Below are positions 1 to 19,265 of a stretch of 28,663 nt of DNA, in pieces (position 1 is the stretch's first letter; each line of letters opens with the position of its first letter). The translations under genes were made by a program, and so were the position numbers. The DNA comes from a virus. The stretch spans positions 1 through 28,663 of the IMG/VR virus record IMGVR_UViG_3300026130_000019; one strand, given 5' to 3'. A model generated the notes under the pieces. The model did no database searches, had not been told where the DNA came from, and saw only the letters and a program-made list of their open reading frames with translations.

Positions 1-2
1 AT

Positions 3-62
3 TTAATTATTAGTGTCGATAGCCAAGATTTAATTATAGATCATTTGAATAAACATGATTAA
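3..62 (+). CDS. 3' end of an unknown gene cut by the window edge
   Basis: Only the last 19 codons are visible, ending in TAA at 60-62. The reading frame is open to the window edge, and its stop overlaps the ATG of the next ORF (ATG at 55-57), the tight packing seen throughout this phage. Nothing in the short C-terminal tail identifies a family. Confidence 0.45.
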   Translation, partial: LIISVDSQDLIIDHLNKHD

Positions 63-222
63 GCCGCATCTTTGGTCCAAATCTATTAACTGCATAGGCG
101 AGATTTATTGGTGGCTAAAGTGTGTAGAAGCCGGTAAAGATTACCATAGTTATGAAACATTGGAAGACGTAATAATTGATCTTACGTTGTGTGAGGATGA
201 TAATGCACAAACTAAAAATTGA
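55..222 (+). CDS. Small unknown protein, 55 aa
   Basis: The ORF runs from ATG at 55 to TGA at 220-222. Its ATG lies inside the end of the preceding ORF and its own end overlaps the start of the methyltransferase gene at 203, as in a translationally coupled operon. The protein is rich in aromatic residues and cysteine near its centre and acidic near its C-terminus. I do not recognise a family. Being small, it could be a chance ORF, but the overlap on both sides and the otherwise empty stretch argue for a real gene. Confidence 0.5.
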   Translation: MIKPHLWSKSINCIGEIYWWLKCVEAGKDYHSYETLEDVIIDLTLCEDDNAQTKN

Positions 223-925
223 AACATTAAACCGCGGAAATATAGAATTATCATTTCAAAACTTTAGTAGATTTGTATGGGTTGCTGGACATCAACTTGG
301 AATTATTCGTGGATATGTAGATGATCCAGAAGAATATTGTAATACAGTATCTAAGACTGTATCAAATAGATTTCAACAAAGAGAAAGCTTAGGGGCGTTT
401 GATAATTTAAATAGTGAATCTATTATTCTTGACATTGGATCTGGTGTTGGAATAATTGATATTGTATTACATAAATATTTAGACGGTGGTAATTTCATTT
501 TAGTAGATGAATCAATCGTAGATCATAATCACGTAGTTTCTCATTGGAGCGACACTCATGGATTTTATAACGATTGGAATTTATTTAAAGATATTGCAAT
601 AAACAGTGGTATTGATATGGCCAATTTTACTTTGCAATCGCCTGGTGTAAAATGGCCAGAAAAAATCGATTTGATAATGTCTAGTCAAAGCTATTTATGG
701 CATTATCCACTAAATGTTTATCTCGACGAATTATTAGATCATCCAAATTCGTCGCTATTATTTGATATATTAAATAGACCTGAAAATAATATGGAAAGAT
801 TAAACATACTCCGAGAATATGAATGTGAATATATTGCTATGAAACCGTTTTTATTTCACTGGTTTGAAAACGAGTTATTATTAGATGAAAATAATAGTGC
901 CGGAAAAATATGCTATTGGAAGTAG
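203..925 (+). CDS. Class I SAM-dependent methyltransferase-like protein
   Basis: The protein has about 240 residues. A glycine-rich SAM-binding motif I, ILDIGSGVGIID, lies about 75-85 residues from the start. A motif II-like acidic end of strand beta2 (FILVDES) follows, and then a motif IV-like stretch (DLIMSSQSYLWHY), which together give the order expected of a Rossmann-fold methyltransferase. I chose ATG 203 because GAGG at 193-196 sits 6 bases upstream; the ORF is also open to TTG 176 and ATG 197. The substrate cannot be read. The gene overlaps the following oxygenase-like gene by 16 bases, so methylation and oxidation may act on the same target, which is inference. Confidence 0.7.
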   Translation: MHKLKIETLNRGNIELSFQNFSRFVWVAGHQLGIIRGYVDDPEEYCNTVSKTVSNRFQQRESLGAFDNLNSESIILDIGSGVGIIDIVLHKYLDGGNFILVDESIVDHNHVVSHWSDTHGFYNDWNLFKDIAINSGIDMANFTLQSPGVKWPEKIDLIMSSQSYLWHYPLNVYLDELLDHPNSSLLFDILNRPENNMERLNILREYECEYIAMKPFLFHWFENELLLDENNSAGKICYWK

Positions 926-1527
926 ATAGATATTACAGATTCATCGATATAGACAATTTAAATGTAATACAAAATAAAGTTTTATCACTTATAACAGATA
1001 TAAGTGTATCAGGATCTATGTTGTTAACATTTACAAATCGTCACGATAAAAATTTATTTAATGATATAGCATCAATCAAAGAAATAAATGAATTTTTGAT
1101 TAAACATAACTTATCCGAGTATATAATGGATTACGTTGTTGGTATACTTAATCCAGATCAAACAATGGATATACACTCAGATCCTTTATATACAGATCCA
1201 GCTACTTTAAAAACTTCAAACAGACAGCGTGTTTTAATACCTATAAAAAACTGTGAAAACACTACTACCTCATTTTATATTTCAAAGGAAAAACCTGAAC
1301 TGAGATACGCTAATGACGCTAATGGTGGGTTGTTACCTTACGATTATTATTCTGAAGAAAAATGCGAATTGCTTGCAGAATTCAAATTAACAAATCCAGC
1401 TTTAATTACAACTGATGTATTACACGGTGTTAAAAACAACACAGACAGTCCTAGAATCAATCTCTGGATAATATTTTCAAACGAAGTAAATTTGGAAGAT
1501 CATTTATGGAAAATTGGAAATATTTAG
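910..1527 (+). CDS. 2OG-Fe(II) oxygenase-like DSBH protein
   Basis: A 205-aa protein with the marks of the 2-oxoglutarate/Fe(II) dioxygenase fold: an HxD pair (H89, D91, in MDIHSDP), a distal histidine (H172, in DVLHGV), and an arginine about ten residues later (R182, in SPRINLW) placed to bind the 2OG carboxylate. A core strand RVLIPIKNC lies between them. Enzymes of this fold hydroxylate or otherwise oxidise proteins, nucleic acids or small molecules; the substrate here is unknown. The gene overlaps the methyltransferase by 16 bases and the next paralogue by 22. It shares the pattern RxRVLxPxxxxE and the distal H...R spacing with that paralogue, so the pair probably arose by duplication. 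Confidence 0.68.
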   Translation: MLLEVDRYYRFIDIDNLNVIQNKVLSLITDISVSGSMLLTFTNRHDKNLFNDIASIKEINEFLIKHNLSEYIMDYVVGILNPDQTMDIHSDPLYTDPATLKTSNRQRVLIPIKNCENTTTSFYISKEKPELRYANDANGGLLPYDYYSEEKCELLAEFKLTNPALITTDVLHGVKNNTDSPRINLWIIFSNEVNLEDHLWKIGNI

Positions 1528-2075
1528 AAATACCTAATTACGATATCATACGAAACAAGTTAGAAAAAATAATACAAAAGTATAAGCATCTATTAAAACA
1601 CGGTGTATTGATAATCAATCGAGAAACACCAGAGCTTGTTGCAGACATTACTATGATAGAAGAACTAATGGATTTTTTAGAAAATAAAAAATGGTTAAGA
1701 TATGTCCACGAATACTCATTAGTTGTAATTGAACCAAATAAAGAATATGGTATACACATAGATGGTAATGCTATTGCACCTTATATAAGCAGACACAGAG
1801 TTCTTTTACCAGTTACATTAAACGAAGGTGTTTACACAAGATTTTGGAAAACAAACGGAGAACCTTGTAAAATACATTACGTTTCAGCTGATGGTGTGAA
1901 ACAAGAATTATTAGAATATGATAAACGAATATGTGAAGAAATAGACAGATACGAGTTAACTAAACCGGTCGTCATGGATTCAATAGTTCCTCATAGCGTT
2001 GATACCAATTTTTATCCTAGTATTAGGATAGCCATAGGAATAAATTTCAATAGAAATATAAATATAGAAAAATAA
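1506..2075 (+). CDS. 2OG-Fe(II) oxygenase-like DSBH protein, paralogue of the gene before it
   Basis: A 189-aa protein with H84 and D86 (YGIHIDGN) as the HxD ligand pair, H163 (VPHSVDTN) as the third ligand, and R174 (SIRIAIG) as likely 2OG-binding arginine. The strand HRVLLPVTLNEG matches its upstream neighbour. Length and layout are those of compact phage 2OG oxygenases. The last 19 bases hold a T4-type late promoter box (2057-2064) that serves the next gene, so transcription can be uncoupled at this point. The substrate is unknown. Confidence 0.68.
   Translation: MENWKYLEIPNYDIIRNKLEKIIQKYKHLLKHGVLIINRETPELVADITMIEELMDFLENKKWLRYVHEYSLVVIEPNKEYGIHIDGNAIAPYISRHRVLLPVTLNEGVYTRFWKTNGEPCKIHYVSADGVKQELLEYDKRICEEIDRYELTKPVVMDSIVPHSVDTNFYPSIRIAIGINFNRNINIEK
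2057..2064 (+). promoter_or_regulatory. T4-type late promoter box TATAAATA
   Basis: This is an exact match to the T4 late -10 box, read by sigma gp55 with clamp gp45 help in T4. It lies at the 3' end of the preceding coding region. A start about 6 bases downstream (near 2070) would give a 23-base leader carrying AAGAGG at 2081-2086, ahead of ATG 2093. Confidence 0.7.
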
Positions 2076-2092
2076 TATTTAAGAGGTCTGGG

Positions 2093-2665
2093 ATGGCTAA
2101 GCATTACGTAACAGTCACAGCTAACAATTTACCTACAATGCAAACAAGTGTGTTAAATGTATTACCGACTGATATGAAAACAACTGCAGGTTTTACTTTT
2201 TTAAATAGACTTGCCAACACTGCAATTTATGATAGTGTTAAAGCAGAAGTTGCTAGCTTTTTGAACGATGAAGGAGTTGCTAACTCGGTATCTGATATAG
2301 CGTTATATGTAATGAATGGTAATTCAACGTTTGACATTCATACTAATATAATAGTTACTGACTTTAATCCGGCAAGATATATTATACCTTTAGAAAATTG
2401 CGACAACGTGTATTATGATTTCTATTCATCTAATACTACGCCAACCACAGTAGATATTTTATTAAGTGATGGATTAAATTCTTATCAAAAATACGAAGCT
2501 AATAATTGTGTGTTTCTAGAATCGGCTCAGTTTAATTCAGTATTATTGACAAACACTATCGCACCTTATGCGCCAAGAAATGCTGGAGCCAATACCGCCA
2601 TTTGTTTAAGTATTTTTCTTGACGGTACACCAAATTTATCTGCTAGTATTCCCGATTATGTCTAG
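2093..2665 (+). CDS. Degenerate DSBH paralogue, probably non-catalytic
   Basis: The 190-aa protein aligns by eye with the two genes before it, sharing FLNR, FDIHTN against MDIHSD, and ARYIIPLENCDN against RVLIPIKNCEN. The catalytic set is broken: HxD has become H83-x-N85, the distal histidine position is APYAPRN (tyrosine in place of H), and the downstream arginine is absent. It therefore probably does not bind iron or 2OG and may be a structural, binding or regulatory pseudoenzyme. It has its own late promoter (2057-2064) and a good Shine-Dalgarno (AAGAGG), unlike its neighbours, which suggests high late expression. Its end overlaps the convergent minus-strand gene by 30 bases. Confidence 0.65.
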   Translation: MAKHYVTVTANNLPTMQTSVLNVLPTDMKTTAGFTFLNRLANTAIYDSVKAEVASFLNDEGVANSVSDIALYVMNGNSTFDIHTNIIVTDFNPARYIIPLENCDNVYYDFYSSNTTPTTVDILLSDGLNSYQKYEANNCVFLESAQFNSVLLTNTIAPYAPRNAGANTAICLSIFLDGTPNLSASIPDYV

Positions 2666-3253
2666 TTTTTTATCAGTCAATTCTATGGCAAAAAATTCTT
2701 GCATACAGTGATTGTATTCGTGCAAGCCTCTATATTTTAAACTACGAATAAGTTGAATATTACCGGTTTGGGTAGCAATACCCGAACCGTCTTTTAGCTT
2801 TTTGCACAGCGTTTTTAATCTAGGTTCATGCGGAAATATTGTAATGAATACTCCAAGTTTATAACTTATTTCGGCATATTCGATTAATCTATCCAATAAA
2901 CCATCTGGCCAAAATAAACGTGAAGGATATTGTTTAGCATATTTCCTTAACCCAAAATGATAAACCGCGCCTTTAATCCAATCTCCAATAATAACAGCTC
3001 CACTAATACATGTTATATTCCCATCTTCTCCATAATGGCAGTCAATATGATCGAAGTCTGTTTCATTCCACTTGATATCTGTGAATCTCCAAATATCTTC
3101 TTTGCGGTGTGCATCTGAATTCATTACTTGTTCATAAGAATAATTTAAATATTCCTTGTTACCACCGCATTCCTCAATTGCACTTATTCTGAATTTAGTT
3201 ATATCAGGATGATGCTTATTGAATTGACGTAAGTATTTTGGCAAAGTATTCAT
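2636..3253 (-). CDS. Probable GNAT-type acyltransferase
   Basis: A 205-aa protein and the last gene of the long minus-strand operon. The middle has the alternating strand pattern of GNAT enzymes (ITCISGAVIIGDWIKGAVYHFG), then a helix with PSRLFWPDGLLDRLIEYAE, and a strand LGVFITIFPHEPRLKTL like the beta5-alpha4 region of acetyltransferases. The classical acetyl-CoA loop Q/RxxGxG/A is not clear, so the call rests on overall pattern. The start overlaps the end of the radical-SAM gene by 38 bases. A transfer step in the same pathway as the oxygenases and radical-SAM enzymes is inferred. It could also be a fold I do not recognise. Confidence 0.45.
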   Translation of the reverse strand: MNTLPKYLRQFNKHHPDITKFRISAIEECGGNKEYLNYSYEQVMNSDAHRKEDIWRFTDIKWNETDFDHIDCHYGEDGNITCISGAVIIGDWIKGAVYHFGLRKYAKQYPSRLFWPDGLLDRLIEYAEISYKLGVFITIFPHEPRLKTLCKKLKDGSGIATQTGNIQLIRSLKYRGLHEYNHCMQEFFAIELTDKKLDIIGNTSR

Positions 3254-4820
3254 CTTTTATTTGTTTGCGTTTTTTGATTGCTGCTATAACTGTATCAGGG
3301 TCGTCTTGTCTCATATGAAGAATTTGATCCTTTGTGTACCCTAGATTAATCATCCTATTATAATTCAAGAACATAGTTAAACTAAATTTTTTATGGGCAT
3401 TCCTTGGGTCCATATAAAAATTATCTACAATTTGATCTGCTTCATACACGTCAAAGAATTCGCCTTTCCATTTATAAAACTCATCTTCACCATATTCCAT
3501 ATCATATTTTTCAGCATCCATTTCCATTTTTGAAACGTTGTTATATTGCCATCCACGTTTGCCTTTAATGAATCCCCAATTTCTCATTTGTTCAGCAGTA
3601 TGTAAACCACTGTCAATTGCAGGGTAAAGCTGTGATAAGTATAATCTATTTACGGAAAAACCATGTAATGGAACATCAGGTCTATGCAACCAATCAAATG
3701 TTTTTTCTAAACTTGCTTGATCTTCATGAGGTAAACCTACTAAGAAATTTGCAGAAGTAAATACGTCATCACCCCAAGCTTCTTCTAATCGATATAAACA
3801 ATCTTTTAGTTTTTCCGGATCTGCGCCTTTGCCTATTGCTCGACCTGCTTGTCTATTAAAAGTTTCAATACCAAAGTTTGCTGATGTAAGACCCATCTCA
3901 TGAAGTTTAGTTATCATGTCTGGATTTGCTGCAATAATATCTAACCTCAAGTGACAACTTAATCTAGGTTTAAACGGTAAAGAAGTAAATACCTCGTGTA
4001 AGTAATCAACTTTCATCATACTGTCGTTTACAGTATCATCAGCTACCATATATCCAACAGTACCAAACTTTTCATAGTTGTAAATTAATTCTTCACGTAG
4101 TATTTCTGGATTTTTATTAAAGTCTCCAAATTTTTTGCCATTCAAATTAAATGCACAGAAATCACATTTGAAAATACAGCCTCTTGCCGTTTCAAGTTGT
4201 AAATCTTCTCCTGGTCTTATATGATCTGATTCGTGCCATGTGATTTTACATGTGGTAAAATCTTCAAATTCATACATTTTATCTGTAATGATTCTGCCCA
4301 GGTGAGATTCAATCCATTTTAGTTGATCTCCATATTTTAAATGACGAGATAACGCAACCGAAGGTCCTTCTCCTTGACCAACAACCCAATAGTCTATACC
4401 TCTGAATTCTTTATGCAGCGCTTTATATCCACCAACGACGATTTTGCATTTTGGGTTAATCATTTTTATTTGGAGAATAAATTCTTCCATTTCATCATCA
4501 GAATGCGGAAACAGCGTTTGGAATACTTGGTTAAGTTGTTTTAACCCGCCAAGAGGTGGTGTAAGCCAAAGCTTCATGTCTTCTTCAAAAGTCAAATGCT
4601 TTCCAAAAAGAGTACTAGCGAATCCAACCCATAATGTTTCTTCGCTAACTTGCGCGTCAATAACTTCACTCACTTCGTCGGGCGTCATGTCGCCAAAAAA
4701 TTCTATTGTTTGAACTGTGAATCCGTTATTTCTCAACTCTGTTGCGATTCTATATGGTCCTGCATATCTACTAAAACCTAGTGGACCATTACAATCATTG
4801 AATATTATTATTTCAGCCAT
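3216..4820 (-). CDS. Radical-SAM enzyme with N-terminal cobalamin-binding-like domain
   Basis: The 534-aa protein has the [4Fe-4S] triad CxxxCxxC at C215, C219 and C222 (ARGCIFKCDFCAF), followed by a TIM-barrel-like core with GTVGYMVADDTVNDS and GLTSANFGIETFN. Residues 1-180 look like a Rossmann-type B12-binding domain, with IVVGGYKAL and WVVGQGEG near its end as in B12-radical-SAM proteins. The usual DxHxxG cobalamin motif is not evident, so the domain may not bind B12. About 150 residues follow the barrel. The protein is clearly paralogous to the one at 7303-8856. The chemistry could be methylation, thioether or C-C bond formation; the substrate is unknown. It overlaps the gene before it by 13 bases. 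Confidence 0.85.
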   Translation of the reverse strand: MAEIIIFNDCNGPLGFSRYAGPYRIATELRNNGFTVQTIEFFGDMTPDEVSEVIDAQVSEETLWVGFASTLFGKHLTFEEDMKLWLTPPLGGLKQLNQVFQTLFPHSDDEMEEFILQIKMINPKCKIVVGGYKALHKEFRGIDYWVVGQGEGPSVALSRHLKYGDQLKWIESHLGRIITDKMYEFEDFTTCKITWHESDHIRPGEDLQLETARGCIFKCDFCAFNLNGKKFGDFNKNPEILREELIYNYEKFGTVGYMVADDTVNDSMMKVDYLHEVFTSLPFKPRLSCHLRLDIIAANPDMITKLHEMGLTSANFGIETFNRQAGRAIGKGADPEKLKDCLYRLEEAWGDDVFTSANFLVGLPHEDQASLEKTFDWLHRPDVPLHGFSVNRLYLSQLYPAIDSGLHTAEQMRNWGFIKGKRGWQYNNVSKMEMDAEKYDMEYGEDEFYKWKGEFFDVYEADQIVDNFYMDPRNAHKKFSLTMFLNYNRMINLGYTKDQILHMRQDDPDTVIAAIKKRKQIKDEYFAKILTSIQ

Positions 4821-5278
4821 TTTAAAACATTCTCAAAGGTCGCTTCATTATTTTGAAACGTAATTCTAAAAACTTTTCTATCATACGGACGAGCAGATAC
4901 TTTGTGCATAGATCTAACATCTACTAAAGCTGTATCATAATAGAATTCGCCATCTTCAAATTCTATAGGTGCAGGATCCGGAGTAAGAATACAATTAATA
5001 GCACACATGGATCCTTCTTGATCTGCATGCCACGGTAAATCTTTGTTTGCTTCAATTAGCAAATAATTTACGATATATTTATCATAAGGCAAATCATAAT
5101 AATCTATAAATTGCTTTGCTATATTTTCTGTTGTTTCATTACTAAACAAAAGCCAAAATCCGTCGAACTGATCTTCTCTGCCGTCCTCTGTTATTTCATA
5201 CTTACCTTTGAGTAATGTATCAAACTCTTTTAATAAAGTGTCTTTAGGAAATATATAGTCTAATTCAATTAGCTTCAT
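4808..5278 (-). CDS. 2OG-Fe(II) oxygenase-like DSBH protein, short
   Basis: A 156-aa, single-domain protein. H84 and D86 (LPWHADQ), H125 (RSMHKV) and R134/R138 make the expected ligand set. Between them lies a block, APIEFEDGEFYYDTALVDV, that is nearly repeated in the next two genes upstream in the operon (5265-5771 and the C-terminal half of 5753-6694). The three form a sub-family with WHxD, a run of small residues, then AP(V/I)xFxxGxxYYxxA. It overlaps its neighbours by 13-14 bases on each side. Confidence 0.75.
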   Translation of the reverse strand: MKLIELDYIFPKDTLLKEFDTLLKGKYEITEDGREDQFDGFWLLFSNETTENIAKQFIDYYDLPYDKYIVNYLLIEANKDLPWHADQEGSMCAINCILTPDPAPIEFEDGEFYYDTALVDVRSMHKVSARPYDRKVFRITFQNNEATFENVLKWLK

Positions 5279-5771
5279 TTATTTTTTCTTTTATTTCATC
5301 AAATGAACTGTCATCGCCATAAAACACAATCCTAAACATAATTCTCGTATTTGGATTGCTTGGCACTCTATGTCTTTTTCTTATATTTAACAAAGCTGCT
5401 TTGTAATACGTCTGCCCTTCTTCAAATTCAACGGGCGCATTATCATTGGATAGCAAAACATTTAAGCCGCACCCAGCAGGTTGCCTGTCAACGTGCCAAT
5501 CTAATTCAGTATTAGGTTCTAACACAATGAATTGTGTAACGAAAGATGCACTAATTCCATAAGCATCACAAAACTCCTTTGCAATTCTATTTAACAAAGG
5601 ATCGTGATGTAGTTTTTCATTTACTTTAAATCCTTTGTAAGTTCCTTCTAATCCTTTGTCATTTTCAAAGTCTTGTGGAGCCCACCAATCTGCCATTTCG
5701 GAATAAGTTGTTTTGAAATAGTCCAATAATTCTTGATTAGGAAATTCATAAGTTACGTGAAATATTGACAT
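5265..5771 (-). CDS. 2OG-Fe(II) oxygenase-like DSBH protein
   Basis: A 168-aa protein with H93 and D95 (LDWHVDRQ), H134 (KRHRVPS) and R143/R147 (RIMFRIVF) as metal and 2OG ligands. The block APVEFEEGQTYYKAALLNI identifies it as a sister of the genes at 4808 and 5753. The first 80 residues vary between sisters and probably shape substrate choice. It overlaps the upstream gene by 19 bases and the downstream gene by 14. Confidence 0.75.
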   Translation of the reverse strand: MSIFHVTYEFPNQELLDYFKTTYSEMADWWAPQDFENDKGLEGTYKGFKVNEKLHHDPLLNRIAKEFCDAYGISASFVTQFIVLEPNTELDWHVDRQPAGCGLNVLLSNDNAPVEFEEGQTYYKAALLNIRKRHRVPSNPNTRIMFRIVFYGDDSSFDEIKEKINEAN

Positions 5772-6694
5772 AAATCTTTGTGCCTTGTATTTCTAAAACT
5801 AATTCTCATTAAAATTCTTTCTTTATCTCTATTAAAAACCGCGTGCTCTTGCATAACATCTAATGCAGCACATTTGTAATAAAAATCTCCTTCACGGAAA
5901 GTTACTGGGGCTGGATCATTTGTCATAATAACATTAACACTTGATCGGCATCTTGTCGCGTCATCTGTATGCCAACTCAATTCGAAGTTCTTATCAATCC
6001 ACATAAATTGCGCAAGTATATCATCTTCAATTCCAAAGTATCTACAGAATCTTTTTGCTTCCTGCATTAACAAAGTATCTGTATCAACACCATAATCATG
6101 TGTTCCGTAAACAGCTAAACCATTTAATGTATTTTTTGTAGTTTTGCCATCTTTACTAAATTCATAGTCTGGTTGTGGACCATGTTTCATTCGCTCGTAT
6201 TCTTGCCACAATAAATCCATATTAAAATCATAATCAATATCTACTACTGGTTTTGGCCAATTTGTTTCTTCTGCTTTATATACTGTTAAGCCAATTCTAG
6301 GTCTAGTCATTCCTTCAACATTATGGAAAGTCTTAACATTTAATTTATGCCATTTAAATGGTTCTATTTTTACTTTTTCAATTAGATTTTGATCTTCGTC
6401 ATAGAAGCAAGTATAAACATCATCACCGCCTGGATCTATAACATAATTATATGCAGCAAATCTATTTGAGTCTTTATGAATAGGTAAACGAGGTGGCCAC
6501 ATCACATGAACTCTTGAAACATAAGATTCATTAAATAGCAATTCACCAAGATATTCCAAGTTACCTTTTGGTTTGAAAATACCGTAATAGCCATTTGTAG
6601 GAACGTGGTGTAAGTTTTGACCTCGATAAATTGTTTCAAATATTTGATTCATATCGATGTCGATAGTTGGTAAATCTAAATATTCAACGTTCAT
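5753..6694 (-). CDS. Tandem two-domain 2OG-Fe(II) oxygenase-like protein
   Basis: The 313-aa protein holds two DSBH domains in a row. The first has H73, D75 (LPIHKDSN), H124 (KTFHNVEG) and R131/R133. The second has H242, D244 (LSWHTDDA), H284 (MQEHAVFN) and R293/R297, plus the APVTFREGDFYYKCAALDV block of the sister genes. The two halves differ more from each other than the second half does from its single-domain neighbours, so this looks like a fusion of two lineages rather than a recent internal duplication. All ligands are present in both halves, so both may be active. Confidence 0.78.
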   Translation of the reverse strand: MNVEYLDLPTIDIDMNQIFETIYRGQNLHHVPTNGYYGIFKPKGNLEYLGELLFNESYVSRVHVMWPPRLPIHKDSNRFAAYNYVIDPGGDDVYTCFYDEDQNLIEKVKIEPFKWHKLNVKTFHNVEGMTRPRIGLTVYKAEETNWPKPVVDIDYDFNMDLLWQEYERMKHGPQPDYEFSKDGKTTKNTLNGLAVYGTHDYGVDTDTLLMQEAKRFCRYFGIEDDILAQFMWIDKNFELSWHTDDATRCRSSVNVIMTNDPAPVTFREGDFYYKCAALDVMQEHAVFNRDKERILMRISFRNTRHKDLCQYFT

Positions 6695-7319
6695 GGCATA
6701 GTCCCATTAAAGTGTCGTAAGCTTCAGCGTCGAATGAAAAAAAGAACGTATATACGTCATCTCCCAAAGATGCTGCAAAGTGTTGTTTAGCTGTATCTGT
6801 AACATATAGTCTGCCAGATTCCAATTCTATTCCTTCGTGTGATTCGTCGTAGTATTCAAATATATATTCATCAACATTATTAGTACCCCAGAATCTTAAA
6901 TAGTTTGTTGGTATATTACAATCAACGTGAGGATAAAAGAACGATCCTTTTTTCCACCATAATATAGCTGAACGAACCATATATTTTTTAACCGGTTCTA
7001 AACAATCAAAACACGGCAAGTCTAAAATCTCAGTTGGTATGCGATAGTCCATGTCGTATAAATTGGTACCGTATTTTTTATTGTACGCATCTTGGGGATA
7101 TATACACGTATCAATGTCCATGTCTAGTAGTCCAGTCATATTAACAACACTTATTCCTTTGCGGAACATTTTTTCTAAATGCTCTTCACCCCAGTCACGG
7201 AACATTGGTTTGTAAGGTTCAATTTGTTCTTCAAAAGCTTTTATGTCAATTTTAAATGGAAGTTCTACAAATGACTTAGTATGTAATTTATAATATTCTT
7301 CTTCATCTATCCAGCGCAT
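6684..7319 (-). CDS. 2OG-Fe(II) oxygenase-like DSBH protein
   Basis: A 211-aa protein with H131 and D133 (FFYPHVDCN) and H180 (DTAKQHFAAS). No arginine follows at the usual place; the last strand is GDDVYTFFFSFD, so the 2OG-binding residue differs from its neighbours or the cofactor is held another way. The N-terminal 120 residues, with two cysteines in LPCFDCLEP, are unlike the other family members here. It overlaps the radical-SAM gene upstream by 17 bases and the tandem gene downstream by 11. The substrate is unknown. Confidence 0.66.
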   Translation of the reverse strand: MRWIDEEEYYKLHTKSFVELPFKIDIKAFEEQIEPYKPMFRDWGEEHLEKMFRKGISVVNMTGLLDMDIDTCIYPQDAYNKKYGTNLYDMDYRIPTEILDLPCFDCLEPVKKYMVRSAILWWKKGSFFYPHVDCNIPTNYLRFWGTNNVDEYIFEYYDESHEGIELESGRLYVTDTAKQHFAASLGDDVYTFFFSFDAEAYDTLMGLCHER

Positions 7320-8856
7320 TAATTAATCCTTCGTGATAGTCTTGAATCCATTTATCATTTTTCTCATAAAGCTCTTGTGGCATATTTCCATACTTTAGCA
7401 TATCAAAACTTTCTTTATGAGTATATCCCAAACTTCTCATTCTAGGATAACTAAAAAAGTTTGTGTTTTCTTCTAATGCTTTATTGAACCCGCTGTTACC
7501 TTTTCTCAATTCTTGTTTCCACTTATTTGAAATTTCTACACATTGATTATAGTTTAATGTATCATGTTCCCAATAATATGGACTAAATTGTAATTTGCGA
7601 ATACCATACTTTTCGTTGTTATTATTAAAGTCATCTTTAGCTTCAGTTCGGTAATCTGGCGGTCTTAAATATAAAACTTCCCATAATATTTTATCTATGG
7701 ATTTTTGATGAACCAAAAAGTCTAATGTATCGTCCAACGATTCAACCGTTTCTCCGACCAGGCCTATAATAAAGCTTCCAAGGATAAACATTTCATCGCC
7801 AGTTTTATCCTTCATCCATTTAACAATATCCTTTATCTTTTGCGGATTTAACCCTTTACCTACAATTTTGGCTGCGGTTGGATTGAATGTTTCAATACCT
7901 AAGAAGACACCCCTGCATCCAGATTCTATCATCATATCTAGCATTTCAGGATATGCTTGGAACATATCAGGTCTACAATAACTAATCCATTCAACTTTAA
8001 AAGGCAAAGAAGTAAATACGTCATGAATCATTTTTACTTTTTCTAAACTATCATTTACAGTATCGTCTGTAAGACTGTATCCGACAGTTCCAAAGTTTTC
8101 GTAGTTATAAATTAACTCCTTTCTTAGTTCCTCTTTGCTTTTTAAGGTAGTACCCATTTTATCAAACATACAAAACTTACAACCAAACTTGCAGCCTTTC
8201 GATATTTCTAATGGAAGCCACTCATTATTTTGGACGTAATCATTGTGATCCCATTGTACTCGTAAACATTCTGTTTTATCGCTGCCAGCATTATTACCTT
8301 CACTTATAAACATAACATTATCTCTGTACTGTACATGCACAAGATTTGTCGTTCCATTTATATAATTTGGCACTGATGATTCACCATATCCGTGAATAAA
8401 GCAATCTATAAGTTTCATTGCCTCAGGCAGTTTTGGCTTATCGGGATCTACAACGTAACGTTTATACCAAACATCAACACTATGACCTCCTACGAAGATC
8501 TTGGCATTAGGAGCAATGAGCTTAAGTTCCATTAGCCAATCAACCATATCTTCGTGTTCTTCAAACCAAAGATTGAAATCGTTTACGCGCTTGTTAGATG
8601 TATTGTTAAGAAATGTTGTGCTAATACCAATAAACTCAGTATCAAGCCCAATAATGCCATCTTCTACATATGAAAAGAAATCGTCTATTTTTAGAAAATA
8701 ATCTACAACAGCAACAGACTTGTCCGGACATTTATTTTTGATAGCTTGCTTTACTGCATATGGTCCTAGATACCTAGACCAAAAACTCCATTTTCCGAGA
8801 CCTTCATTCTTTTCTCTTTTCTCGGAAAAAATATCATTGAGTAAAACTACGTTCAT
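7303..8856 (-). CDS. Radical-SAM enzyme, second paralogue
   Basis: The triad CxxxCxxC lies at C222, C226 and C229 (SKGCKFGCKFCMF) of a 517-aa protein. The core is shared with the 3216-4820 protein: RKELIYNYENFGTVGY, then DDTVNDS, HDVFTSLPFK and GIETFN in the same order and spacing. The N-terminal 170 residues are again B12-domain-like, with KIFVGGHSVDVW and FIHGYGESS but no clear DxHxxG. I chose ATG 8856 because AGGTGA lies 8 bases upstream and the start MNVVLLND then matches MAEIIIFND of the paralogue; a GTG at 8868 is the alternative. It overlaps the first operon gene by 23 bases. Confidence 0.85.
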   Translation of the reverse strand: MNVVLLNDIFSEKREKNEGLGKWSFWSRYLGPYAVKQAIKNKCPDKSVAVVDYFLKIDDFFSYVEDGIIGLDTEFIGISTTFLNNTSNKRVNDFNLWFEEHEDMVDWLMELKLIAPNAKIFVGGHSVDVWYKRYVVDPDKPKLPEAMKLIDCFIHGYGESSVPNYINGTTNLVHVQYRDNVMFISEGNNAGSDKTECLRVQWDHNDYVQNNEWLPLEISKGCKFGCKFCMFDKMGTTLKSKEELRKELIYNYENFGTVGYSLTDDTVNDSLEKVKMIHDVFTSLPFKVEWISYCRPDMFQAYPEMLDMMIESGCRGVFLGIETFNPTAAKIVGKGLNPQKIKDIVKWMKDKTGDEMFILGSFIIGLVGETVESLDDTLDFLVHQKSIDKILWEVLYLRPPDYRTEAKDDFNNNNEKYGIRKLQFSPYYWEHDTLNYNQCVEISNKWKQELRKGNSGFNKALEENTNFFSYPRMRSLGYTHKESFDMLKYGNMPQELYEKNDKWIQDYHEGLINALDR

Positions 8857-9445
8857 TGTTCTTTTCACCTAAAATAACAAAAACCAAATGTATGCGAGTT
8901 TCTCTACTTCCATTCAATGCAGTGTGGTATTTTGAAGTATCAGTCCACCACCATTCATGTTTAGGTAGCTCCATAACTTCATCTTCAATTATCATCTTGC
9001 ATCCAATTTGAGTCTTTAAAGGATAATGAATTCTAGACGTCGGGTCGTAATGCCAACTCATGCACGTTCCCGGGTTATTTTTCATTAACCTAACTCTACC
9101 AACTTCATAATGTTTACTTACTTCATTATAAGCGTTTTCAAAAAGAGTACCTTTAAATGCATCAATAAAATATGTAAAGTCATCTTCATCTAAAGGATTA
9201 TCGTGTGGAGGAACAAAAATTTTTTCGTTACCAGCTTTGTCAAGCTCTTTATACATCTTACTCCAATCATACCACAGACTATTTATGCCTAAATACATGT
9301 CGTTAGGCTTCTCTGGGATTGACGTAAGACAGATTTGATTACCATTACCCCAACTAATAACACCTTCGTCAAGAAGGCGTGTATACTCAGAATAAAGGTC
9401 TAGCTGAGAAAATTTTAGCTTTTTAAAATGCTTCAGTGTATCCAT
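8834..9445 (-). CDS. Aspartyl/asparaginyl beta-hydroxylase-like 2OG oxygenase, first gene of the operon
   Basis: A 203-aa protein. H132 and D134 (MSWHYDPTSRIHYPLKT), H174 (SKYHTALNGS) and R181/R184 (SRETRIHLVFV) follow the pattern of aspartyl/asparaginyl hydroxylases and related phage dioxygenases, including the RIHxPLxT strand and HxxxNxSxxxRxH. Such enzymes often hydroxylate protein side chains, which would fit a protein target, but this is inference. The gene opens the minus-strand operon. A late promoter box ends only five bases before its ATG, and no Shine-Dalgarno fits in that gap. Confidence 0.75.
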   Translation of the reverse strand: MDTLKHFKKLKFSQLDLYSEYTRLLDEGVISWGNGNQICLTSIPEKPNDMYLGINSLWYDWSKMYKELDKAGNEKIFVPPHDNPLDEDDFTYFIDAFKGTLFENAYNEVSKHYEVGRVRLMKNNPGTCMSWHYDPTSRIHYPLKTQIGCKMIIEDEVMELPKHEWWWTDTSKYHTALNGSRETRIHLVFVILGEKNNERSFTQ

Positions 9446-9450
9446 AGAGT

Positions 9451-9458
9451 TATTTATA
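9451..9458 (-). promoter_or_regulatory. T4-type late promoter box for the oxygenase/radical-SAM operon
   Basis: TATTTATA on the plus strand reads TATAAATA on the minus strand. It is the only late-type box found upstream of the eight-gene minus operon. With a start about 6 bases after the box, as deduced for hsp20 in this window, the first base would be the A of ATG 9445, giving a leaderless message. Confidence 0.6.
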
Positions 9459-14415: not shown

Positions 14416-14444
14416 TTTACAAAATCCTTTCTGTGACTTATAAT
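14416..14444 (+). promoter_or_regulatory. Sigma70-type promoter of the glycosyltransferase/glf operon
   Basis: TTTACA at 14416-14421, a 17-base spacer and TATAAT at 14439-14444. The ORF start at 14443 would lie inside the -10 box, which supports the later ATG 14488 as the true start of the next gene. Confidence 0.78.
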
Positions 14445-14487
14445 GGTCATAAATAAACGCGTGATCATTTTTCATTATGGAGTTTAT

Positions 14488-15585
14488 ATGTCTAAAAAAA
14501 TCTTAATCACAGGTATGAATAAGTTGCAATGCACGAAAGATTTCTTTCTAAATCAGCAGCTTCAGGTTGTACCATCTCATTATTCAGTTATCCGTTGCTT
14601 AGAAGATATGGACTACGAGGTTGAACAAAGACCCGTAGAACTAGGCGAGGACCTTTCTAAATACGATGAGGTAATCGTCTATATCCATAGTATTCAAGCC
14701 TTCTGTCAGTTCCTCTGGGCCGGTCTGTACGCTGTTAAAGCACGCCCTGATTGTATTATTGCTTTTGACGATTGGCAGTTTAACCAGATCTATGGCGCTA
14801 TTGAAACTTATAAAGAAAAGCTAGAAGAAAATGACGAAGGTGTTTTCCGTGATTACCTATTTGATCTATGGCAAGGTAAAGAAGATAAAGCAACTGTAAT
14901 GTCTTATAAAGATGATTACATTGAAGGTTGTCGTATTATTACCAGCAAAGAAAATCGTCTATTGGTAAGTGCATTTACAGGTGGCGATCTTTCTCTTCTC
15001 AATCTAGATTGGAAAGAAGAAAACGTTTATCAGTTCAATCCAAATCCATACCACTTGAATCGTCGCGCTGATAACGGTTATGGTACAGGTGATGTAGGTC
15101 TTGATTCTTTCTTTGGTCAACCAGAAAAAGAATTCAAATGGAACTTTGCTTCGTTAGTTCAAGAGAAAACTCGTAAGTGGCTTAAAGCACAACAACCCGA
15201 TGATTGGAAATGGGAAATTGTTTTCTACGGTGCTAAACGTGGTAAGTACAAATCAGAGCGTAAGACTGAACCAGAAATGGTAAAAGTATTTGAACAGCAA
15301 TGGGGTTGCTTGATGCCAGGTTATTTCCACGCAGGTTCTGGTTGGTGGCGAGCTCGTCCTCTTCAAGTTGCAGATGCTGGTTCTATCATCATTGGTGACA
15401 AACCAGAGATGATGGTATATTATAATGATGAAGCATTAGCAGGTTTACGAGTACAAGATGTAGAAGCTATGGATCTTACTCAGCTCAAAGCTACTGCTAA
15501 AGCTCAACGTGACGCACTATACGATAACCATCCTCTTGATAAAATGATTCAACAGGAAGAAATGAAAAGAGTTCTTGAAGCATGA
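14488..15585 (+). CDS. GT-B glycosyltransferase resembling T4 DNA beta-glucosyltransferase
   Basis: A 365-aa protein with ATG 14488 chosen because GGAG lies at 14479-14482 and the longer frame begins in the promoter. The layout resembles T4 beta-GT: an N-terminal Rossmann half with SHYSVIRCLEDMDYEVE and DLSKYDEVIVYIHSIQAF (in T4 beta-GT, an S-E-T-I-Y...DYDRLIVVNSSINFF run), a second half beginning WEIVFYGAKRGKYKSERK (T4: DVIYGGSFRSGQRESK), and a donor-site region GWWRARPLQVADAGSIIIGD. It would transfer a sugar from a nucleotide to hydroxymethylcytosine in DNA. The donor may be UDP-galactofuranose, since the next gene, joined by ATGA, makes it. The fold call is firm; acceptor and donor are inferred. 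Confidence 0.72.
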   Translation: MSKKILITGMNKLQCTKDFFLNQQLQVVPSHYSVIRCLEDMDYEVEQRPVELGEDLSKYDEVIVYIHSIQAFCQFLWAGLYAVKARPDCIIAFDDWQFNQIYGAIETYKEKLEENDEGVFRDYLFDLWQGKEDKATVMSYKDDYIEGCRIITSKENRLLVSAFTGGDLSLLNLDWKEENVYQFNPNPYHLNRRADNGYGTGDVGLDSFFGQPEKEFKWNFASLVQEKTRKWLKAQQPDDWKWEIVFYGAKRGKYKSERKTEPEMVKVFEQQWGCLMPGYFHAGSGWWRARPLQVADAGSIIIGDKPEMMVYYNDEALAGLRVQDVEAMDLTQLKATAKAQRDALYDNHPLDKMIQQEEMKRVLEA

Positions 15586-16586
15586 AACGTGTACTAGTTG
15601 TAGGCGCTGGTTTTTCCGGCGCCGTCGTTGCTCGCGAGTTGGCTGAGCATAATTATAAAGTATGGGTAATTGATTCTCGTGATCATATTGCTGGTAACGC
15701 GTATGATTACACAAATGAGCATGGTATTCGTGTTCATAAGTATGGCCCGCATCTATTCCATACAAACAACAAAGAAGTATTTCAATACTTAAGTCGTTTT
15801 ACTGAATGGGTTGATTACAAGCATAAAGTTAAGGCTCAGCTTGATGATGGTCGTTATGTAACGCTACCAGTAAATCGCGAAACGAAAGAAATCGTTGGTG
15901 AGGAAAATGTTCTTGATACGTTCTTCCGTCCTTACACTAAAAAGATGTGGGGTGTAGAATTAGATGAGCTTAATCCAGACATCATCAACCGTGTGCCAAT
16001 CCGAGACGATGATAACGAATATTATTTTCCAAACGACGAATACCAAGCAATGCCCAAAGATGGCTATACTGCTATGGTAGAACGAATGTTGGCGCATGAA
16101 AATATTACCGTGAAGCTTAGTACCAACTACGACAAATCTTTGAATCTATTATTCGATCATGTTTTTAACTCAATGCCAATCGACCAATATTTCGATTTTA
16201 AGTATGGCGAACTTCCATACCGTTCAATTAAGTTTGAAACAGTTCATTTACCAGTACCGAAAGCTCTGCCAACTGCTACCGTAAACTTTACTCATGATGG
16301 TCCTAAAACGCGTGTAACTGAATGGAAAAATATTCCTTGTCACGGAGACAATAAATATATCACTACGCTGACGTTTGAAGAGCCATGCGATTATAAAGAT
16401 AATAATATGGAACGTTATTATCCTATTAAAGATCGTGATGGTAAGAATCGTGAGCTATATGAGAAATATAAGAGTGAACAACCTGAGAATATGACCTTCA
16501 TCGGTCGTTGTGGTCTATATGCTTACCTAGACATGCATCAAGCTGTGAACTCTGCATTAGCTACTGTAAGGAAATTTTTATCATGA
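15582..16586 (+). CDS. glf: UDP-galactopyranose mutase
   Basis: The flavoenzyme interconverts UDP-galactopyranose and UDP-galactofuranose. Seen here: FAD dinucleotide motif GAGFSGAVVA (8-17), GNAYDY, YGPHLFHT (54-61), RPYTKKMWG (116-124), FTHDGPKTRVTEW (236-248) and the C-terminal FIGRCGLYAYLDMHQAV, all hallmark Glf blocks. At 334 aa it is slightly shorter than the bacterial enzyme (about 370). It sits between a beta-GT-like glycosyltransferase and a C5-methyltransferase with 4-bp overlaps on both sides. Mutases can also act on UDP-arabinose, so an arabinofuranose product is possible. Confidence 0.95.
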   Translation: MKRVLVVGAGFSGAVVARELAEHNYKVWVIDSRDHIAGNAYDYTNEHGIRVHKYGPHLFHTNNKEVFQYLSRFTEWVDYKHKVKAQLDDGRYVTLPVNRETKEIVGEENVLDTFFRPYTKKMWGVELDELNPDIINRVPIRDDDNEYYFPNDEYQAMPKDGYTAMVERMLAHENITVKLSTNYDKSLNLLFDHVFNSMPIDQYFDFKYGELPYRSIKFETVHLPVPKALPTATVNFTHDGPKTRVTEWKNIPCHGDNKYITTLTFEEPCDYKDNNMERYYPIKDRDGKNRELYEKYKSEQPENMTFIGRCGLYAYLDMHQAVNSALATVRKFLS

Positions 16587-17785
16587 GTGAATTTACCCAC
16601 GCAAGTATTGTACCTCTAATTGGTGGTGAAACCATTGGCTCTCATCGAGCCTTTGGTGCACCTCCAATCCATTTTATGTCATATGAAGCATTTGCTAATA
16701 ATGATCGACATATTCTAAATTATTATAAAAATGAAATTCCATATCACGTTCTAGATAATGGTGGTAGTATTCCAGAACAAAAAGCAGATGTTGTTTCGTC
16801 TGTTTGTCCTTGTGCTGGTCTATCAATGATGTCTCATGGATATGGTGACGACAACCAAAATAATAAATGGATGGTTGAAACCGCAAATCTAATTCTTGGT
16901 AATTACAGACCAAAAGTATTTTGGGGAGAGAATGCTCCAGGCTTTGCTGGTAAAATCGGTAAAAATGTTCGTGAACAACTAAAGCAAATTGGTAAAGATA
17001 ATGGATATACAATGAGTGTATACCGTACCAAATCTTTGCTACATGGTGTTCCACAAGTTCGTGAACGTTCTTTTTACTTTTTTTGGAAAGGTGAAAAGAC
17101 GCCAATCTTTAATTTCTATGATCGTCAATATACACCTATTGAAGATCTAATTCGTGGCGTAAAATCAGATTTTCAAATGGAACCAATTAATAAAAAGAAA
17201 CCATCTGAAAATCCATATTACCGTTATATTCTAGAAGAAATTCACGAAGGTCGCTCTCATACAAATCATTCGCATGAAATCGATCCTACTTCAGCTCGTG
17301 GCGTAGATGCTTTCTCTTACATTGAAAGAGCAGGTCATTCTTATTTGCAGGTTGCAGATTGGATGGAAAAGAATGGTTACGAAAACGAAGTAGAAAAATG
17401 TAAGTACAAGCACGAAAAACTTGCAGGCGGCGGTAGCATTATGCGACGTGGTGTAATTGTTCCTAAGGATCGTATTGGCGCGTTTGTTGGGCATTATCCG
17501 ACAATGCTTACTCATCCCGATGAAGATCGTTTTATTACATATCGCGAAGCAATGTCTATCATGGGCTTGCCTGAGGACTTCGAGTTGGTTGATGCTAGTC
17601 CTAAAGTTGCTAACCATATATGCCAAAACGTACCTGTACAAACAGCTCAGGACATGGCTACAGAGGTTCTGGCATCACTAAAAGGTGAACGTAAATGGGT
17701 TGACACTGACTACATTTTGCAGTATAATAATACCAAGAAAATTGAATACTCGCAGCCAACAACCACTCTTGAGGCATTTCTATGA
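16583..17785 (+). CDS. DNA cytosine-C5 methyltransferase family protein
   Basis: A 400-aa protein with the ordered motifs of C5-cytosine methyltransferases: motif I variant PLIGGETIGSHRAFG (11-25), motif IV SVCPCAGLS with catalytic Cys77, motif VI GENAPG (E116, N117), motif VIII PQVRERSF (157-164) and motif X NVPVQTAQDMA near 349. The region between motifs VIII and X is long (about 185 residues) and would hold target recognition. ATG 16583 overlaps the glf stop (ATGA), with AAGGA upstream. In a phage that places hydroxymethyl on C5, ordinary methylation of its own DNA would be blocked, so the substrate is puzzling. Confidence 0.85.
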   Translation: MSEFTHASIVPLIGGETIGSHRAFGAPPIHFMSYEAFANNDRHILNYYKNEIPYHVLDNGGSIPEQKADVVSSVCPCAGLSMMSHGYGDDNQNNKWMVETANLILGNYRPKVFWGENAPGFAGKIGKNVREQLKQIGKDNGYTMSVYRTKSLLHGVPQVRERSFYFFWKGEKTPIFNFYDRQYTPIEDLIRGVKSDFQMEPINKKKPSENPYYRYILEEIHEGRSHTNHSHEIDPTSARGVDAFSYIERAGHSYLQVADWMEKNGYENEVEKCKYKHEKLAGGGSIMRRGVIVPKDRIGAFVGHYPTMLTHPDEDRFITYREAMSIMGLPEDFELVDASPKVANHICQNVPVQTAQDMATEVLASLKGERKWVDTDYILQYNNTKKIEYSQPTTTLEAFL

Positions 17786-18417
17786 GAAATGATTTTATTC
17801 TAGATTTTGAAACGATCGGTCAGTGCGCTCGCAAAGCGCCTGCCATCGATTGTTCTTATCTTGTGTTTTCTTGGGATAGATTTTTAGAACAACCTTACTC
17901 ATTCCATGAACTATGCCAAATGGCTAAGAAGTCTAAATTGTCTATTGCTGACCAAGTTAAAAACTATGACTTCTCGTACACCGAAGCAGATATGCAATGG
18001 TGGATGGAACAACCAAAAATTGTTCGTAAAAATATTAAACCAAAACCAGATGATCTTACAGTTCCACAATTTATAGAACAATTAATTAACTATCTTCGTG
18101 GATCAGAACATATTAACTATTGGTGGAGTCGTTCTAATACGTTTGATCCAATCATTCTAGAACACCTTGCCATGTCAGTTAACCGTGATAAAGTACTAAA
18201 TGAATTTATTCCTTATTGGAAAGTTCGTGATACCCGTACATTTATCGACTCAAAACTGGACTTTCCAGCTAAAAATGGATTTGTTCCAGTATTAAATGAA
18301 GAAATGTGGACGCTTTATTTTAACGCCCACGATAGTACTTGTGATATTGCGGCGGACGTTCTTCGTCTACAAGCTATTCACAGATTAGAAAATGATTTGG
18401 AGTTAACAGAAATATGA
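17782..18417 (+). CDS. dexA: DexA-like DEDDh exonuclease
   Basis: A 3'-5' DNA exonuclease of the DEDD superfamily, like T4 exonuclease A (227 aa; here 211). Exo I: D8 and E10 (FILDFETIG). Exo II: SRSNTFDP with D122. Exo III: H183 and D188 (NAHDSTCD), the DEDDh form. In T4, DexA is a non-essential early exonuclease thought to help degrade host DNA. ATG 17782 overlaps the methyltransferase stop, and the next gene overlaps in turn by 4 bases. Confidence 0.88.
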   Translation: MRNDFILDFETIGQCARKAPAIDCSYLVFSWDRFLEQPYSFHELCQMAKKSKLSIADQVKNYDFSYTEADMQWWMEQPKIVRKNIKPKPDDLTVPQFIEQLINYLRGSEHINYWWSRSNTFDPIILEHLAMSVNRDKVLNEFIPYWKVRDTRTFIDSKLDFPAKNGFVPVLNEEMWTLYFNAHDSTCDIAADVLRLQAIHRLENDLELTEI

Positions 18418-19265
18418 ACATTCAAGTGACGGTTGACGAACTAAAAAAGTATAAGCTTTTCGTCGGCACTCCAATGTACGGTGGCCAGTGTGCTGGTTCA
18501 TATACAAAGTCATCAACTGATTTGGCTTTGATGTGCGCAGCTAATGGTATCGACGTTAGATTCTATTACTTGTTTAATGAGAGTCTAATTCAACGTGCAC
18601 GTAACTATATTGTAGATGAATTCCTAAGATCTGATTGTACTCATCTCGTATTCATTGATGCTGATATTGCGTTTGATCCACGAGATGTATTAAGTCTATT
18701 GGCTGTACAAATTCAAGATCCAGAAAAATTTAATATCGTTACTGGCCCATATCCAAAGAAAGCTATTGCATGGGAAAAAGTTAAAAAGGCTGTAGAATCT
18801 GGACGCGCTGAAAACCCGTTTGATCTAGAACAATACACAGGTGATTTTGTATTCAACCCAGTTAATAAGTTGAATTCATTTAATCTAGGTGAACCACTTG
18901 AGATTGCTGAAGGTGGCACAGGCTTTATGTTAATTCCTCGTGAAACACTTGAAAAATATGCTGCAGCATATCCTGAGTTGCAATATAAACCAGACCATGC
19001 TCGTACAGATCAGTTTGATGGATCTCGTAACATTACAGCATTCTTCGATTGCATTATTGATCCACAAAGCAAACGTTACTTGTCTGAAGATTATTTCTTC
19101 TGTCGTAAAGCGCGTGAAATCGGAATGAAAGTTTGGATGTGTCCTTGGATGCAACTAAATCATATTGGTACATATATTTTCAAGGGTAATCTTGGAGCTA
19201 TTGGAACTCTAGGCGTATCTGCTACAGCCGATAAAACCAGTAATAAGAAAGCGTACAAAAAATAA
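18414..19265 (+). CDS. GT-A glycosyltransferase
   Basis: A 283-aa protein. The metal/nucleotide motif D82-A-D84 sits in HLVFIDADIAFDP, after an N-terminal strand (KLFVGTPMYGG) and SLIQRARNYIVDEFL. A catalytic-base-like SEDYFFCRKA (223-232) and a likely metal-binding H250 (LNHIG) complete the GT-A layout. It is the fifth and last gene of the operon that begins with the beta-GT-like enzyme. It may add a second sugar or use a different acceptor; the donor is not readable. A fresh promoter for gene 45 follows three bases after its stop. Confidence 0.78.
   Translation: MNIQVTVDELKKYKLFVGTPMYGGQCAGSYTKSSTDLALMCAANGIDVRFYYLFNESLIQRARNYIVDEFLRSDCTHLVFIDADIAFDPRDVLSLLAVQIQDPEKFNIVTGPYPKKAIAWEKVKKAVESGRAENPFDLEQYTGDFVFNPVNKLNSFNLGEPLEIAEGGTGFMLIPRETLEKYAAAYPELQYKPDHARTDQFDGSRNITAFFDCIIDPQSKRYLSEDYFFCRKAREIGMKVWMCPWMQLNHIGTYIFKGNLGAIGTLGVSATADKTSNKKAYKK

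Follow-up and report, generated by a model that had tools for sequence, protein, structure and literature searches.

Viral gene islands rich in oxygenases and radical S-adenosylmethionine (radical-SAM) enzymes are widespread, are functionally unexplained and tend to adjoin tail-fibre genes; they probably decorate something that the virus makes late in infection. One such island lies at positions 910-9445 of a stretch from an uncultured T4-like phage (IMGVR_UViG_3300026130_000019, positions 1 to 28,663; all 28,663 nt are called the window below), where genes for double-stranded β-helix (DSBH) oxygenases of the Fe(II)/2-oxoglutarate (2OG) type are packed together with two radical-SAM genes. What do these enzymes modify? 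The answer tentatively preferred here is a fibre/adhesin or other virion protein, rather than a glycan or lipid of the envelope. It is carried by the observation that the enzymes come from virus-borne families whose clusters, in close relatives and in Pelagibacter phage Mosig EXVC030M (MT647606), adjoin tail-fibre genes. Since this SAR11 phage is in culture and its fibre genes adjoin a related island, the substrate can be tested for directly.

According to this proposal, the block would be co-transcribed as the tailoring cassette of a host recognition cluster and would be expressed late. The Fe(II)/2OG oxygenases, the B12-type radical-SAM enzymes and a methyltransferase would add hydroxyl and methyl groups to the fibre/adhesin or other virion proteins that are produced alongside them, and the modification may tune either stability or receptor and neutralisation properties.

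Oxygenase genes

An initial annotation, made from the sequence alone, described eight genes with nine DSBH domains in this region, and the open reading frames (ORFs) and alignments bear this out. The plus strand carries O1-O3, and the minus strand carries O4, O5, the two-domain O6/O7, O8 and O9, interleaved with the radical-SAM genes (Table 1). The HxD...H metal set is kept in eight of the nine domains, as had been claimed. The exception is O3, where HTN replaces HxD and the distal His is gone in alignment A2. O3 has thus lost its metal ligands, still has an open reading frame and adjoins the intact paralogues O1 and O2; a regulatory or scaffold partner is one possible role.

The cluster is larger than first described. 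L003, another record of this phage that matches the window at 99.93% identity over 14.8 kb, reaches 1.1 kb beyond the window start and brings in O10, the tenth DSBH gene, with a gene for a fatty-acid desaturase upstream of it.

O9 is the sole window oxygenase that clears the curated cut-off of Asp_Arg_Hydrox (PF05118; 39.6 bits versus 22.6). For O1-O8, Pfam gave no PF05118 match up to an E value of 1, and these proteins are linked only via iterated hidden Markov models (HMMs). Because Pfam recognises O9 alone, the remaining oxygenases were examined by other routes. The iterated HMMs of O1, O2, O5, O6N, O8, O9 and O10 recruited overlapping member sets, and hhalign pairs alignment A5 with A2 (E 1.8e-4). 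With O1, O5, O8, O9, O10 and further oxygenase-type proteins as seeds, the HMMs collected 205 proteins in the fetched loci (L numbers), 183 of them with H-x-D/E...H; the three iterated rounds at 1e-5 leave room for drift, though models and motifs agree. Structure prediction, proposed earlier as a check, upheld the DSBH fold for O1 and O5. In a Foldseek search of the PDB, the great majority of matches to the AlphaFold model of O1 (predicted local distance difference test score, pLDDT, 85.4) were Fe(II)/2OG oxygenases and cupin dioxygenases related to them (best E 1.8e-5), and the model of O5 (pLDDT 79.4) had PHD2, prolyl-4-hydroxylases and AspH as top matches (E about 1e-5). By the predicted fold of O1 and O5 and by the triad, which O3 fails, the window oxygenases belong to the Fe(II)/2OG dioxygenase superfamily, and they are predicted to depend on 2OG and Fe(II).

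Radical-SAM proteins

The two CxxxCxxC proteins noted in the initial annotation both contain the radical-SAM core (PF04055; Table 1). In Pfam, the N-terminal B12-binding domain scores 27.6 bits in rSAM1 against a cut-off of 32.1 and is marginal in rSAM2 (E 0.085), while the PhpK family, class-B relatives, matches at 1.6e-17 and 4.1e-31, respectively, both below cut-off. The nearest family models would place both proteins in the B12-binding class, with the domain itself below the Pfam cut-off. A quick tree of 82 relatives, with Shimodaira-Hasegawa-like approximate likelihood ratio test (SH-aLRT) support only, puts rSAM1 and rSAM2 in separate clades of one viral family, so a recent tandem duplication is unlikely and finds no support.

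In IMG/VR, at least 375 viral stretches carry a gene of this family, and a search of 50,697 catalogued phage records returned no match at E 1e-5. Among 84,980 genomes of bacterial and archaeal species, a pattern-limited scan yielded two strong matches only, in Enhygromyxa and in one Pseudomonadales metagenome-assembled genome, and a pattern scan based on the rSAM2 clade had no hits; a bacterial origin of the family was rejected on these results. The Enhygromyxa salina homologue (L125) adjoins apparent DUF3050-like (haem-oxygenase-like) and asparagine-synthetase-like genes, named by eye, in what is possibly a natural-product locus.

The neighbours of the viral members include oxygenases, desaturases, SPASM-like radical-SAM proteins, PP-loop-like enzymes and GNATs. 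Many of these contigs hold several oxygenases and desaturases, that is, a chemistry without a known product. Two of them, L077 and L059, carry several fatty-acid-desaturase paralogues near a radical-SAM gene of the same family, five of them in tandem in L077. Another locus (L084, 15120-19585) has four paralogous proteins of 286-396 aa (family F108) near two radical-SAM genes, which possibly represent another oxygenase family.

Organization and constraint of the cluster

The minus-strand members overlap by 11-38 bases in the ORF list of the window, as previously described. The suggestion that they form a dedicated operon is backed by these overlaps, by purifying selection and by the recurrence of sub-modules in other phages. 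The ratio of nonsynonymous to synonymous substitution rates (dN/dS) against L099 is 0.02 for rSAM2 (dS near saturation) and 0.13 for O9, and that of the desaturase against L103 is 0.18; for O8, which is 87% identical to its L099 counterpart, and for O10, synonymous sites are saturated and the corresponding proportions (pN/pS) are 0.10 and 0.18. The testable enzymes of the cluster are under purifying selection.

As for recurrence, an O9-type gene occurs within about 5 kb of rSAM2-clade members in L099, L036, L061 and L055 (three contigs are interrelated), the order O4-O8-methyltransferase is found in L091, L092/L100 and L095, and the adjacency of desaturase and O10 is common to L003 and L103. 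The O9-side flank consists of DNA-metabolism genes in the window and differs in L099, which suggests that the block travels as a cassette. With eight oxygenase genes in 8.5 kb, the window is the densest of the fetched loci (the runner-up has six), a ranking that is not unbiased, since homology to the cluster decided which loci were fetched and the window supplied the HMM seeds. Other dense tandem clusters are those of L089 (7987-12220) and L090 (6549-10729), with five DSBH-HMM genes each, more by motif, and an O10-type gene first.

Tail-fibre context

The closest relatives of the cluster's desaturase end lie directly next to fibre genes. In L103, whose O10 is 78% identical, the island begins about 0.85 kb from a gene for a 2621-aa fibre-type protein, with a fibre-assembly-like gene between. 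In Mosig, whose desaturase is 76% identical and about a dozen of whose genes match the contig of L103, the related island occupies about 55-72 kb, between fibre genes and VrlC. The region was named the host recognition cluster in PMC7029224, where radical-SAM cassettes with tail fibres are reported in it and an aspartyl/asparaginyl beta-hydroxylase is listed as pelagimyophage core. This cluster runs from VrlC to the neck gene and includes fibres; Mosig has fibres and VrlC, L103 has fibres, and the window stops short of the boundary. The block probably belongs to this hypervariable cluster of a T4-like phage, an assignment much firmer than that of a protein target.

The Mosig and pelagimyophage clusters share with the window Asp/Asn-hydroxylase-type oxygenases, a desaturase, methyltransferases and radical-SAM genes, with overlaps between neighbouring genes; in Mosig they stand beside tail-fibre genes. 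Mosig differs in that its radical-SAM proteins are of the MoaA/SPASM type instead of the B12 type, its oxygenases are fewer, and its island adds peroxiredoxin, nitroreductase, aminotransferase and carbamoyltransferase genes. On the contig of L036, an island exceeding 40 kb (L111-L113, about 54-99 kb) also stands beside fibre-type genes; it has about 15 genes with a radical-SAM motif, besides amidinotransferase-like, SGNH-like, epimerase-like and glycosyltransferase-like genes named by eye.

What is modified?

The initial annotation pointed to a target made late, such as a virion or tail-fibre protein or a glycan. The fibre context of the relatives agrees with it, and the predicted fold neighbours of O5, which are protein prolyl hydroxylases, would favour a protein. 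In the survey of related phages suggested in the initial annotation, seven contigs had fibre-type proteins at distances of 0.85-5.3 kb from DSBH genes; judged by the share of contig genes within 5.4 kb, the background is 23-31% in the three informative contigs of the seven. Several observations weigh against the preferred reading. The distance threshold was chosen after seeing the data, and in a fourth contig, G009, the background is 95%, so fibre adjacency carries no information there. The window itself ends ahead of any fibre gene, the link being an indirect one through the relatives, and the O9 homologue of Mosig sits outside its island. Late timing is something we infer. Collagen-like Gly-X-Y repeats are absent from the fibres of the relatives, and a collagen-like fibre substrate was rejected for this reason. 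Finally, the nearest solved relatives of O9 act on small molecules and the desaturase suggests a lipid, which together pull away from a purely protein target, and genes of the Mosig island suggest a glycan.

A different explanation is envelope remodelling, in which lipid or glycan of the host outer membrane is modified (e.g., by hydroxylation of lipid A or O-chain, desaturation or methylation), so that receptors change and superinfection is blocked. The desaturase adjoins O10, which is weakly LpxO-like, and aminotransferase, carbamoyltransferase and epimerase genes are found in the Mosig island, a sulfotransferase-like gene in L103, and UDP-galactopyranose mutase and glycosyltransferase-like genes elsewhere in the window; PMC7029224 proposes that glycosyltransferases of the host recognition cluster alter the surface. 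However, O10 matches LpxO only weakly (4.7e-4; 19 bits, where the cut-off is 500), O5 is prolyl-hydroxylase-like, and nine or ten different small oxygenases seem more than a single lipid would need. This explanation is considered less likely than not, though it ranks only narrowly behind the virion-protein proposal.

Slightly less likely again is an extended form of the virion-protein proposal, namely a virus-specific oxidative system of post-translational modification, in which hydroxylases and B12 radical-SAM C-methyltransferases would diversify tail-fibre/adhesin proteins beyond the 20 amino acids and cassettes would be exchanged, changing the interaction with the host.

The chemistry also recalls natural-product pathways. 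Proteusin clusters of the polytheonamide type, which make ribosomally synthesized and post-translationally modified peptides (RiPPs), combine B12 radical-SAM C-methyltransferases with an Fe/2OG oxygenase and a methyltransferase. The window block resembles them in this combination, and could make a small molecule that diffuses, or a modified peptide, in the manner of proteusin-type or nucleoside-antibiotic clusters. The nearest solved relatives of O9 (7v4f beta-hydroxylase, 2e-22 with the family profile) are a nucleoside-antibiotic beta-hydroxylase and an L-proline cis-4-hydroxylase, and the setting of the bacterial radical-SAM homologue, beside the asparagine-synthetase-like and haem-oxygenase-like genes mentioned above, fits such a pathway. 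Unlike in proteusin clusters, no precursor peptide was seen in or around the block, and the sequence similarity is at the superfamily level only. No carrier protein or peptide synthetase was seen in or around the cluster either, and the search by eye for a precursor-like ORF in it gave no clear candidate, just an ORF of 55 aa. Altogether, such a pathway appears unlikely.

A very improbable alternative is hypermodification of DNA, with the oxygenases and radical-SAM enzymes acting on bases in concert with a C5-methylase and glycosyltransferase-like genes found at 14443-19262. In the Pfam, PHROGs and NCBIfam searches that were run, no oxygenase matched the TET/JBP or AlkB families, and the oxygenases form a separate block on their own strand and stand beside fibre genes in the relatives. 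At 14443-19262, apart from the cluster, the C5-cytosine methylase gene adjoins those for UDP-galactopyranose mutase and two glycosyltransferase-like proteins (phrog_14998 and phrog_1574), possibly a DNA or glycan modification set.

Relation to described phage islands

The initial annotation did not recognise any operon of this density with radical-SAM partners. The exact density is indeed unusual, but islands rich in oxygenases and radical-SAM genes are documented in T4-like marine phages (PMC7029224, PMC5332604 and PMC3037559) and present in a cultured phage, and neither the components nor this type of island is new. The open-access literature searched yielded no description of such density, of oxygenases paired with B12-type radical-SAM enzymes or of the recurrent modules.

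The available portion of PMC3037559 describes several 2OG-Fe(II) oxygenase genes per genome in T4-like cyanophages, among them asparaginyl beta-hydroxylases in P-HM1 and P-HM2, but gives them as counts per genome and not as one dense operon with radical-SAM partners. It also proposes that such multi-copy oxygenases draw down 2OG. For the window this would mean a shift in host 2-oxoglutarate and nitrogen signalling, a role that has very little to recommend it here, as it leaves the radical-SAM partners, the distinct conserved lineages and the fibre-linked position of the related islands unexplained. An environmental T4-like genome with 12 radical-SAM genes, likewise a radical-SAM-rich uncultured phage, is described in the accessible part of PMC5332604, where these genes are read as Fe-S metabolism and oxygenases do not come up.

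Other features of the locus

Table 1. Features of the oxygenase/radical-SAM locus (window coordinates unless L003 is given)
Feature	Position	Strand	Assignment and basis
O10	1..62 (C-terminal end); L003 14759-15514	+	Tenth DSBH gene, 251 aa; HxD...H
Fatty-acid desaturase	L003 15487-15948		Upstream of O10
55-aa ORF	55..222	+	Possible; overlaps O10 end and MT start
MT	203..925	+	SAM-dependent methyltransferase; supported via homologues
O1	910..1527	+	DSBH oxygenase, HSD...H...R; AlphaFold and Foldseek
O2	1506..2075	+	DSBH oxygenase, HID...H...R; O1 paralogue (phmmer 5.8e-16); alignment A2
O3	2093..2665	+	Degenerate O1 paralogue (phmmer 4.5e-12); alignment A2
Initially annotated GNAT	2636..3253	-	Family unconfirmed
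rSAM1	3216..4820	-	B12-binding-type radical SAM; PF04055 2.6e-14, PF02310 2.7e-6
O4	4808..5278	-	DSBH oxygenase, HAD...H...R; alignment A6
O5	5265..5771	-	DSBH oxygenase, HVD...H...R; prolyl-hydroxylase-like fold; AlphaFold and Foldseek
O6/O7	5753..6694	-	Single protein with two DSBH domains (HKD...H and HTD...H); alignments A5, A6
O8	6684..7319	-	DSBH oxygenase, HVD...H; alignment A4; HMM linked to O9/O10
rSAM2	7303..8868	-	Radical SAM, same viral family as rSAM1, different clade; PF04055 1.5e-17
O9	8834..9445	-	Asp/Asn beta-hydroxylase-type oxygenase, HYD...H...R; PF05118 6.2e-10
TATAAATA	9451..9458	-	T4-late-type box, 5 nt before O9 ATG; significance doubtful

The late promoter to which the minus-strand genes had been assigned is ambiguous. 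A transcript from the TATAAATA box would be leaderless, the O9 start codon being so near, and the count of late-box motifs across the window equals chance expectation; the box was accordingly dropped as evidence for timing. The GNAT call is unsupported: searches of Pfam, NCBIfam and PDB with the protein gave no hit, nor did profile comparison link it to an alignment led by a phage GNAT that Pfam verifies; its homologue in L103 (11368-11961) is located beside O10-type genes. The methyltransferase fared better: its homologue in L092 (3935-4708) matches Methyltransf_23 at 1.8e-4, and homologues adjoin O4/O8-type genes in L091, L092 and L095.

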